Source: Sphingorhabdus sp. | GTDB taxonomy: Bacteria; Pseudomonadota; Alphaproteobacteria; Sphingomonadales; Sphingomonadaceae | Length of the DNA stretch: 64,000 nucleotides | Assembly (NCBI RefSeq): GCF_023910635.1 | Contig: NZ_JAAVVZ010000002.1 | Coordinates: 124,001 to 188,000 of the forward strand | Direction of reading: 5' to 3' | The notes under the pieces: generated by a model | Seen by the model: only the letters and a program-made list of their open reading frames with translations | Told to the model about the DNA's origin: nothing | The model's database searches: none | Program-made: the position numbers and the translations under genes | Shown: positions 2,642 through 5,610 of the stretch, in pieces | How the letters are laid out: every line of letters starts with the position of its first letter | Position numbering within the stretch: the stretch's first letter is position 1

Positions 2642-2691
2642 CTGCTAATTTCATGATAATTTGGGAACGAAATTAACGCGTTTCCTGCGGA

Positions 2692-2733
2692 AATGGGGCT
2701 AGTTGCAAAACACGCAACTGGCCCCATTCTTTT
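2692..2733 (+). terminator. intrinsic terminator after the acyl-CoA dehydrogenase/SDR operon
   Basis: A 15-bp stem (AATGGGGCTAGTTGC with GCAACTGGCCCCATT, one G-T wobble) closes a 7-base loop and is followed by CTTTT. It begins 51 bases after the SDR stop codon. This separates the operon from the RNA candidate downstream. Confidence 0.88.
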
Positions 2734-2934
2734 CGCAATTGCAGCAAATTCATCGGCCCCCTATCTGGTTGTTAACGGCAAGCGATTGTCGAAACGCATA
2801 TTGACCGGGCGGCACCCTCCTCCTCTCCCCCTCGCCCCCGGACAATTTTTACGGCCTCCATGCACTGCGTGGGGGCCGTATCGTTTTGTGCTCCAAACTT
2901 GTCCTCCATTTTGTCCACCACGAAGTGCGCGCCC

Positions 2935-2943
2935 TGTGGATAA
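2935..2943 (-). promoter_or_regulatory. perfect DnaA-box match (TTATCCACA on minus strand)
   Basis: TGTGGATAA on the plus strand is the exact complement of the consensus DnaA box. It lies just before the candidate RNA gene and next to TTGTCC sequences (2899-2904, 2911-2916) that could be -35 elements. It is single, and one chance match in a window of this size is plausible, so function is uncertain. Confidence 0.3.
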
Positions 2944-2944
2944 C

Positions 2945-3332
2945 TCTGCAAAACATGCTTGGAGCGACTCGAAAGTTATGAGAACTTCAACTCATCAGGC
3001 AGGAACGCTACGAAGCAAAGCCGGACCGGAAACGGAAAAGCAGAGCGGATATAGAAGGAATGCAGGATCGCCAAACGGACAGGCAACCCGTCGCAAGACA
3101 GGAAATGCAGTCAAGATGGTGGGTACGAAGAAAACGAATATCGAGTGCGGCATCACGCAAGTGATGCAACGCCGGATAGGATACCCACGGTACCAAGGCG
3201 AACCAAGGAAACCTTCGGGTGACGTTGGGGAACCGGACGTCAGACAGAGGAAAAAATGGCCCTTGTGGTCACGAACTTCCAAACTCAGACGCAGTGGGCG
3301 CTGGTAGCGATGCCAGCGCCCATTTTATTTTG
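2945..3332 (+). ncRNA. candidate structured non-coding RNA, family not recognised
   Basis: No convincing protein is encoded here. The plus strand shows a series of compact hairpins: CCG-GAAA-CGG near 3025-3034; GACAGG-CAA-CCCGTC near 3078-3092; a long-range pair GTGGGTA (3119-3125) with TACCCAC (3182-3188) enclosing GCATCAC-GCAA-GTGATGC (3150-3167) extended by GCG/CGC; AAGG-AAA-CCTT (3205-3215); GACGT/ACGTC (3221-3241). Several have GNRA-type loops. The unit ends in a strong intrinsic terminator (3295-3332). The 5' end is a guess. It does not match tmRNA, RNase P, SRP RNA or 6S RNA motifs that I know. A 204-codon open frame (2693-3307) crosses it but starts inside the upstream terminator and looks unlike a protein. 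Confidence 0.55.
3295..3332 (+). terminator. intrinsic terminator of the structured RNA candidate
   Basis: TGGGCGCTGG and CCAGCGCCCA pair perfectly over 10 bp around the 8-base loop TAGCGATG, followed directly by TTTTATTTTG. It lies 80 bases before purL and has no protein gene immediately upstream, so it must end another transcript. Confidence 0.85.
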
Positions 3333-3411
3333 TGCCTGCCCCTTCCCAATTCGCGCTTAATCAAAACCAAACAGGCTGGATAAATACAGATGGTCTCGCT
3401 AAGGCCGTTCC

Positions 3412-5610
3412 ATGTCCGAAATCACGCCCCAAATCGTCGCCGACCATGGTCTAAATGAAGATGAATATGCGCGTATCTTGCACGCGATGGGGCGCGAACC
3501 CAACATCATCGAGCTTGGCATATTCTCGGTGATGTGGTCGGAGCATTGCTCTTATAAATCCTCACGCATCCATTTGAAGAAATTGCCGACGCAGGCCCCT
3601 TGGGTCATTTGCGGTCCCGGCGAAAATGCGGGCGTTATCGACATTGGCGAAGGTCCAAATGGCACCAAGCTCGCCGCAATCTTCAAAATGGAATCGCATA
3701 ATCACCCGTCGTACATCGAACCTTATCAGGGCGCGGCAACGGGCGTAGGCGGCATCTTGCGCGATGTGTTCACCATGGGCGCGCGGCCAGTGGCCAATAT
3801 GAACGCGCTGCGTTTCGGGCGGCCCGACCATCCGAAGATGAAGCATCTGGTGCAGGGCGTCGTTGCGGGCATTGGGGGCTATGGCAATTGTGTTGGCGTG
3901 CCGACCGTTGGCGGTGAGACCAATTTCCATCGGGCCTATGATGGCAATATCCTTGTGAACGCGATGACCGTTGGCGTCGCGGACCAAGACAAGATTTTCT
4001 ATTCCGCCGCGACTGGCCTTGGTAACCCCATCGTCTATGTCGGGTCAAAGACCGGCCGCGACGGTATTCATGGCGCGACGATGGCTTCGGCGGATTTCGG
4101 TGCGGATATTGAGGAGAAGCGCCCCACGGTTCAAGTGGGCGACCCGTTTACGGAAAAGCTGCTGATTGAGGCGTGCCTTGAACTGATGGCGTCGGATGCA
4201 ATTGTCGCGATTCAGGATATGGGCGCGGCGGGTTTGACCAGCTCCAGCGTCGAAATGGCGACCAATGGCAAGGCGGGTATCATCCTCGACATGGACAAGG
4301 TGCCATGCCGCGAGGAAGGCATGACGCCCTATGAAATGATGCTATCCGAAAGCCAGGAGCGCATGCTCATGGTCTTGAAGCCCGGCCGTGAGGAATTTGC
4401 CAAGGCGATTTTCGACAAATGGGAACTGGATTTTGCGGTGATCGGCGAAGTCACCGACACAGGCCATATGGTGCTGACGTGGAAGGGGGAAATTGTCTGC
4501 GACATCCCGCTTGGTCCGCTCGCCGAGGACGCGCCTTTGTATGACCGCCCAGCCGCGTCGAAGGATGAATATAAGGCATGGGCCAAGGTTCAGCCCTTGG
4601 GCGACGTGCCCGCCAGCCATGACCTTGGCGCGGATTTGCTGAAGCTGATGGCCTGCCCTGATCTCGCCAGCCGCGCCTGGATATGGCAGCAATATGATAG
4701 CCAAGTCGGCGGCGACACGGCGCAGCTTTCGGGCGGCGACGCAGCATTAGTCCGCATCCACGGCACCAACCGCGCGCTGGCGATGAGCACCGATTGCACC
4801 CCGCGTTATTGCTACGCCGACCCATATGAAGGCGGCAAGCAGGCGGTGGCCGAAACCTATCGCAACATCAGTGCGGTTGGCGCAACGCCATTGGCGATCA
4901 CCAACTGCCTGAACTTTGCTAACCCGCAGCGCCCCGAAATCATGGCGCAGATTGTCGGCTGTCTGGAGGGCATGGGCGACGCCTGCCGCGCGCTGGATTA
5001 CCCGATCGTGTCAGGCAATGTGTCGCTATATAATGAAAGCAAGGCAACCGGCGGCGGCAGCGCGATCTTGCCAACACCCGCCATTGGCGGCGTTGGTGTG
5101 CTTGAAGATATCAGTAAGATGGCGACCATTGCGTTCAAGGCAGACGGCGACGGCATTTTTGTCATTGGCGACAATGATGGACATCTGGGTCAGTCCTTGT
5201 GGCTGCGCGAATTACATGGCCGCGAAGACGGCGCGCCGCCGCCCGTCGACCTCGCCAAGGAGCGCGCGCATGCGGAATTTGTCCGTCAACTGATCCAAGA
5301 TATTAAGGTGAACGCCGTGCATGATGTTGCCGACGGCGGCTTGCTTGTTGCGCTAACCGAAATGGCGCTCGCCAGTAATATGGGATGTGCGCTCGAAGAA
5401 ATCGGCGACGCCTTCACAGCGTTTGGCGAAGATCAGGCGCGCTATGTTGTGACCAGCGCCGCTGCTGACCAAATTCAGGCCGCAGGCATTCCGATGACGC
5501 GGATAGGCACTGTTGGCGGGACATCGGTCGCAGGGCCGGGGTTTGACGTGCCCATTGCGACACTGCGCGCTGCGCATGACAGCTTCTTCAAGGACTGGAT
5601 GGAAGGCTAG
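3412..5610 (+). CDS. purL: phosphoribosylformylglycinamidine synthase subunit PurL
   Basis: PurL of the small (three-component PurLQS) type, 732 residues, the usual length. It makes FGAM from FGAR, ATP and ammonia delivered by PurQ, the fourth step of purine synthesis in the cytoplasm. Visible are the N-terminal [14 protein letters not shown] motif, the catalytic/nucleotide segment ESHNHPS (H96, H98) followed by [15 protein letters not shown], and the second AIRS-like half with [19 protein letters not shown] and the C-terminal [12 protein letters not shown]. The start is the first ATG after the 80-base leader beyond the RNA terminator. purQ and purS are not in the window. Confidence 0.98.

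Follow-up and report, generated by a model that had tools for sequence, protein, structure and literature searches.

OLE, ROOL and GOLLD are stand-alone RNAs with many hairpins, and Rfam holds models for them as well as for tmRNA, RNase P RNA and SRP RNA. The first three are described in PMC12286853 as large ornate bacterial RNAs. CcnA, a cell-cycle non-coding RNA of Caulobacter crescentus, is proposed in PMC8959179 to act on the ctrA and gcrA mRNAs; according to the same source its gene lies at the replication origin and is presumably activated by CtrA. With regard to GANTC sites, PMC7987155 cites a YGAKTCK preference for Caulobacter and reports little preference beyond GANTC for Brevundimonas.

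The locus described here lies in a window (the whole stretch of Sphingorhabdus sp. DNA that was analysed) of 64,000 nucleotides. Most probably it is a gene whose product is a folded non-coding RNA common to many Sphingomonadaceae, and its existence as an RNA gene is almost certain. It can be classed with the large, stand-alone structured RNAs, in a family that appears to be new. As an earlier reading of the sequence alone had supposed, a search of Rfam 15 assigned the RNA to no known family at threshold. In the window no match at gathering was obtained over the RNA, and none up to an E value of 5 for positions 2650-3420; models for tmRNA, RNase P RNA and SRP RNA thus gave no match there. Neither the RNA in the window nor ten divergent loci matched OLE, ROOL or GOLLD. 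The only sub-threshold hit over the RNA at these ten loci was at L088, where BjrC68 (RF02353) matched positions 2153-2226, the 3' end of the RNA and its terminator, with 24.9 bits against a gathering score of 39; BjrC174 reached 17.9 bits against 45 at the same place. 6S RNA was also rejected, as the only RF00013 match in the genome of the window (G000) is located on contig C34 (43.2 bits, just below the cut-off of 46.4) and not here. No description of this RNA was found in the literature, most subscription journals being outside the coverage of the search.

Boundaries and predicted promoter of the RNA gene

The whole unit in the window comprises a promoter at about 2911-2987 and an RNA of about 338 nt at about 2994-3332. 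It is preceded by an SDR-type gene (1847-2641), which was hit by many SDR models, not one of the top 25 exceeding its cut-off, and followed on the same strand by purL (3412-5610; PurL equivalog match above cut-off). The sequence-only reading had placed a structured RNA gene here. The gene is almost certainly real, but its start, one stem and its surroundings needed correction. Its start had been set at 2945; the conserved promoter sets the 5' end at about 2994, so that positions 2945-2993 are promoter and not RNA. The strong intrinsic terminator described at the 3' end was confirmed (3293-3332, forward strand), with a stem at 3293-3324, a GNRA loop and a T-tract to 3332. Terminators had been claimed on both sides. 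The upstream one is present (stem 2850-2880), but it is not that of the SDR gene, whose own strong terminator lies at about 2692-2733 on the forward strand (fold z -7.2) and was not listed by the initial terminator scan. The claim of a functional RNA gene outside the known families was supported, and we infer transcription itself, together with the transcript start, from the conserved promoter architecture and the conserved terminator.

Between the terminator of the SDR gene and that at 2850-2880, a second conserved small RNA candidate was noted (2802-2880, forward strand). It is composed of a pyrimidine-loop hairpin (CCCUCCUCCUCUCCCCCUC, anti-Shine-Dalgarno-like) followed by its own terminator, the stem at 2850-2880, and it had no Rfam match at an E value of 5. 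A CU-rich run of this type was present upstream of the long RNA at all 27 loci of the genus that had the motif and enough flank. Separately, a suhB/mmgR small RNA (RF00519, 49.4 bits, above gathering) was observed in genome G001 at positions 2875-2952 of locus L025, about 1.3 kb downstream of the long RNA.

The promoter is very probably built as follows, the -10 and -35 elements being assigned by standard promoter rules. An inverted repeat is located about 50-85 bp upstream of the inferred start. Its left arm (TTGTCCAC, 2911-2918, forward strand) is DnaA-box-like and reads TTG-, TTA- or TTT-TCCAC among the genera, while its right arm (TTATCCACA, 2935-2943, reverse strand) is conserved in relatives. 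The consensus of the DnaA box is TTWTNCACA, and the general layout, TTNTCCAC-N17-GTGGATAA, resembles two inverted DnaA boxes. In a mismatch-tolerant search of the order the right arm was GTGGATAA in 61 of 69 hits and GTGGAAAA in five; among the eight right-arm variants, five correspond to TTTTCCAC on the other strand, three of these coming from one genus. While the right arm in the window is a perfect DnaA box, many genera have AGTGGATAA there, which falls short of a full box, position 9 not being A, and a factor other than DnaA could bind the repeat. The motif TTNTNCAC was no commoner in the window than expected by chance (22 seen, 28.2 expected).

The putative -35 element (2959-2965, forward strand) contains TTG; it reads TTGGAGC in the window and TTGNNC in most copies. 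Its surroundings were evaluated in 60 rows, found with a pattern that demanded GACTC and reduced to 41 non-redundant copies at 85% identity. TTG was present at the -35 place in 34 of these 41, and in 39 it stood there or was displaced by a single base. The spacer between the -35 and -10 elements opens with GACTC (2966-2970, forward strand), a GANTC site of the CcrM type. GANTC was kept in 67 of the 69 hits of the mismatch-tolerant search, as GACTC in 63 and as GAATC in four (from four genera), and was broken in two. The -10-like hexamer GAACTT (2982-2987, forward strand) has the consensus NANNNT, often CAGCTT or CATTCT, and thus agrees with the sigma70 consensus at two key bases only. These bases, A at position 2 and T at position 6, occurred with a spacer of 16-18 in 41 of 41 copies, compared with 0-9 of 41 at nine control offsets.

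A protein of the GcrA family (PF07750) was detected in all 21 genomes searched, with a profile that also matches 2 of 14 control genomes. The GANTC site extends to CGACTCG, on the other strand CGAGTCG, in agreement with the Caulobacter preference cited in PMC7987155. The motifs of the promoter appear to be signals often found at genes timed to replication. For control by GcrA/CcrM, perhaps together with DnaA, the chances appear about even.

Spread and genomic setting

A DNA search of 61 genomes detected the gene in 29 of the 37 genomes of its own genus (own genome included) and in none of the 24 others; the remaining eight genomes of the genus were negative by DNA. With R1, a covariance model built on the 3' domain, 69 of 296 genomes matched at E <= 0.001, other genera included. 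The inverted-repeat motif was present at 8 of the 30 R1 loci examined. Three of these are copies from the genus that the alignments already contained, a fourth comes from another of its genomes (G165), and four lie outside the genus. In genomes G174, G212, G101 and G234, which belong to three other genera, the 5' motif of the window occurs 320-740 nt upstream of the R1 match, and G001 carries the inverted repeat by a looser pattern. As the R1 signal is largely that of the terminator, the remaining R1 hits were treated as probable chance terminator matches and were not counted.

The exact pattern of the 5' motif was found in 63 of 396 genomes of the order and the reversed pattern in three. Two of the exact matches (G400 and G232) are oddly spaced and appear to be chance hits. 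When the spacing was fixed and as many as three mismatches were tolerated, the motif was found in 69 of the 396 genomes, in 21 of 84 genera, and the reversed pattern in none. This search missed G183 and G086, where a copy with a slightly changed motif follows argG. In the examined genomes of genera g23, g27, g33, g39 and g41 no copy was found after argG.

The strict geometry of the repeat could also suggest that the locus is mainly conserved DNA, a DnaA-titrating or origin-like site at which transcription is incidental. With 14-22 bp allowed between the arms, the overall length was 56-58 bp in 61 of the 63 exact-pattern matches, and TTATCCACA occurs as a perfect match nowhere else in the window (0.26 expected; weak alone, as 22 of 100 shuffles contain at least one). 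However, the compensatory base changes described below indicate an RNA. Furthermore, in two relatives assembled as single contigs the GC-skew minimum and the element are separated by about 160-340 kb, a coarse estimate from steps of 150-173 kb, so that the element is not at oriC in these two; the window's own genome is in 89 contigs. A DNA site of this kind is therefore very unlikely.

A scan of GTDB genomes yielded at least 120 matching stretches, and 80 loci were listed. By name, 78 of the 80 belong to Sphingomonadales, including Sphingorhabdus, Parasphingorhabdus, Novosphingobium, Blastomonas and genera of the Erythrobacteraceae. The list also includes L188, titled only Alphaproteobacteria, which has a terminator of the same type, and L218 from a Chloroflexi MAG, which is without a similar RNA and was taken as chance. 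A terminator signature, written after the terminators of relatives had been seen, was present within 900 nt in 64 of the 80 listed loci and in none of 58 control windows. Of the 69 listed loci with at least 880 nt downstream, nine (L218 included) lacked the signature; a terminator was found at L244 and L245 by a separate scan. In relatives the GACTC site and the terminator are about 320-745 nt apart (319-744 nt at the listed loci). From genus to genus the length of the RNA differs by a factor of about two, and much of its sequence changes as well. The gene was thus found well outside close strains when the conservation check proposed for other Sphingomonadales was carried out. Promoter, fold and terminator together delimit an RNA gene family across many genera of Sphingomonadaceae.

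In 54 of the 80 listed loci argG lies upstream on the same strand (ArgG equivalog match), and in 47 of these a gap of 33-123 bp separates the projected end of argG from the motif. Named isolates, e.g. Novosphingobium taihuense and Aurantiacibacter marinus, are among the argG-linked copies listed. In the window and some relatives the unit follows an SDR gene instead, with purL behind it or absent, and the argG gene of the window's genome, located elsewhere, has no copy behind it by the motif. The stretch common to both settings runs from the inverted repeat through the terminator. As the setting is argG elsewhere and SDR/purL in the window, promoter, RNA and terminator travel together as a unit. 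These comparisons showed that the predicted promoter and terminator form a conserved unit which is not bound to one neighbour.

Because the RNA in the window immediately precedes purL and shares its strand, a cis-acting leader or attenuator of that gene could be considered. However, the RNA ends in a strong terminator, with about 80 bp left before purL begins. The clade B flanks examined contained no PurL, and PurL-like ORFs were found behind the RNA in the window and in only seven of the 80 listed loci, compared with the 54 that have argG upstream. This makes a purL leader highly improbable.

Fold and coding potential

The predicted fold of positions 2945-3332 has a z score of -5.5 and that of the RNA as delimited here (2994-3331) one of -5.3; in both cases none of 100 shuffles was equally stable. 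Hairpins with GNRA loops, noticed before, were confirmed, and UUCG hairpins were found as well; CUUCGG was counted 40 times against 2.8 expected in 28 chosen representative copies.

Five domains precede the terminator, all on the forward strand. Domain 1 (2994-3068) is an irregular rod whose closing helix, AUC/GAU, starts at the inferred 5' end. Domain 2 (3069-3121) is made up of a closing helix, CRCC/GGUG, and a GUCGCAAGAC-type hairpin, with double changes at five pairs. Domain 3 (3122-3194) consists of a GGUAC/GURCC helix around the hairpin GCATCAC-GCAA-GTGATGC, which the sequence-only reading had described as perfect and enclosed by a long-range pair GTGGGTA/TACCCAC. In relatives the outer two and the inner two pairs of this hairpin are kept, but the pairs between them are frequently open (112 of the 140 cells pair overall). 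The long-range pair forms in 111 of 140 cells over 20 copies but not in the rest; the GGUAC/GURCC helix beside it (3122-3126 with 3190-3194) was paired in 100 of 100 cells and shows a U-A to C-G double change in four rows. Domain 4 (3197-3234) is a hairpin, commonly with a UUCG loop. Domain 5 (3236-3292), the most conserved one, contains the stacked helices CGUC/GACG, GGAA/UUCC and UGGCC/GGUCA.

An alignment of the 29 copies of the genus showed indels in loops and paired changes. In alignment A1 (3' domain and terminator, 28 copies) 98.9% of cells were paired, and 10 of 30 pairs were doubly changed, compared with a shuffle mean of 3.4 and 1-3 for slid structures. In alignment A2 (whole RNA of clade A, 20 copies) 97.8% of cells were paired over 90 pairs. 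Seventeen of these were doubly changed (shuffle mean 9.8, 0 of 500 shuffles as high, slid structures 2-5); the count of further pair types in A2 showed no excess over shuffles (211 of 500). Row L030, which repeats a locus of G017 at another contig end, was left out of all alignments, L002, which is cut at a contig end, out of A1 and A2, and L006, whose variant right arm was missed by the pattern, out of A2.

As the structure of clade A had been derived from its own alignment, an out-of-sample test was done on clade B. On six clade B copies 383 of 527 cells (72.7%) were paired, compared with 29-37% when the structure was slid by 1-4 columns. Domain 5 and the terminator were completely paired (96 of 96 and 84 of 84 cells), followed by domain 1 with 83 of 96 and domain 4 with 38 of 54 cells. 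Domains 2 (34 of 85) and 3 (48 of 112) were poorly paired and have thus been remodelled between clades A and B. On the single rows L027 and L029, 61 of 76 and 71 of 90 cells were paired. Fifteen copies from genera with terminators like those of named Erythrobacteraceae (alignment A3, without the near-duplicate L082 and the shorter L073) adopt their own predicted fold, in which 86.7% of cells are paired. Double changes affected 38 of its 88 pairs, a count attained by none of 500 shuffles (mean 24.9); slid structures gave 13-27. Compensatory changes of this kind, present in most domains apart from the remodelling of domains 2 and 3, showed support for the predicted fold of the RNA.

The gap pattern and the distribution of stop codons showed the predicted RNA to be non-coding. 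Over the RNA, alignment A2 contains 73 runs of gaps, each of 1 or 2 nt, and the three forward frames contain a stop in 16, 19 and 20 of the 20 copies. A short mRNA for a small protein might be suspected from a GGAAAGA-ATG in domain 5, open in some copies, and from long open runs in single copies. These runs reach at most 112 codons, and frames started by ATG at most 98 amino acids; none is shared, and gaps of 1 nt break the domain 5 frame in several copies, e.g. L004, L005 and L014. Together with the short gap runs and the stops in all three frames, this leaves a small mRNA scarcely credible. On the points raised by the sequence-only reading, conservation thus extended far beyond close strains, compensatory changes were found, and protein-like conservation was found in no frame.

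Motif counts and exposure were determined for 28 RNA bodies chosen from 54. CGGA (217 seen, 112 expected), GGAA, UUCG and GNRA loops were enriched, while the Shine-Dalgarno-like GGAG and GAGG, and also GGGG, were strongly depleted in an otherwise purine-rich RNA. The depletion of GGAG and GAGG is consistent with an RNA that avoids ribosomes, which is one guess. The purine-richness and the excess of CGGA could indicate a sponge for a GGA-binding or CU-rich partner, the possible partners being CsrA and the adjacent small RNA candidate rich in pyrimidines (2802-2880). The CsrA family, however, was detected in none of 21 genomes, with a profile that matches 3 of 14 control genomes. The number of CGGA ranges from 2 to 17 per RNA, and in the prediction its bases are 16-66% unpaired, no more than other GGA. 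As CGGA is not specially exposed, no role as a protein sponge is claimed. Complementarity to the pyrimidine loop of the neighbouring small RNA averaged no better than that of shuffles (mean z +0.85 over 25 copies, three below zero). A sponge is accordingly very improbable.

Possible role and related systems

The explanation we favour, with rather more confidence than doubt, is an autonomous, probably replication-timed, trans-acting structured RNA used as a scaffold. The gene's own sigma70-type promoter would start transcription and its own intrinsic terminator would end it. DnaA and GcrA/CcrM would time transcription to DNA replication through the inverted repeat and the GANTC site in the spacer; such timing is what the motifs most likely indicate. 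The folded RNA would then act in trans as a scaffold for a protein or ribonucleoprotein, a role that is a guess and should be taken as tentative.

A base-pairing regulatory RNA similar to CcnA has also to be considered. A small set of mRNAs, possibly those of cell-cycle regulators, would be bound at their 5' ends by its loops, which would open or block the ribosome-binding sites. CcnA itself, as described in PMC8959179, is a precedent in the same bacterial class, and domain 5 contains short conserved stretches that lie outside its helices. However, the roughly two-fold variation in length and the large variation in sequence among genera, as well as the depletion of GGAG and GAGG, argue against such pairing, which we consider unlikely.

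In its furthest form the favoured explanation, the scaffold RNA, extends to the whole family: a large structured RNA whose promoter would integrate DnaA signals with methylation-dependent GcrA signals, so that the RNA is made in a set window behind the replication fork. This extension is doubtful. If true, the RNA would be a cell-cycle component of the Sphingomonadaceae, in a combination found nowhere described. Since GANTC is conserved in the promoter, it can be tested directly whether transcription of a non-coding RNA is timed by methylation.

Among the known systems, 6S RNA is likewise a stand-alone, structured RNA of a few hundred nucleotides, but the present RNA has a multi-domain fold. 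OLE, ROOL and GOLLD share with it the character of large structured bacterial RNAs, whereas the listed loci of the present RNA are, with two of 80 excepted, Sphingomonadales by name. Alphaproteobacterial promoters controlled by GcrA/CcrM and the present promoter both contain GANTC; the targets treated in PMC7987155 are protein genes, while here the site belongs to a predicted RNA gene. The nearest functional analogue found is CcnA (PMC8959179). Both are alphaproteobacterial non-coding RNA genes whose promoters have sites, here putative ones, for cell-cycle regulators. CcnA is located at the origin, whereas the present RNA lies away from the skew minimum sampled in two relatives and has a promoter with GANTC and DnaA-like boxes.
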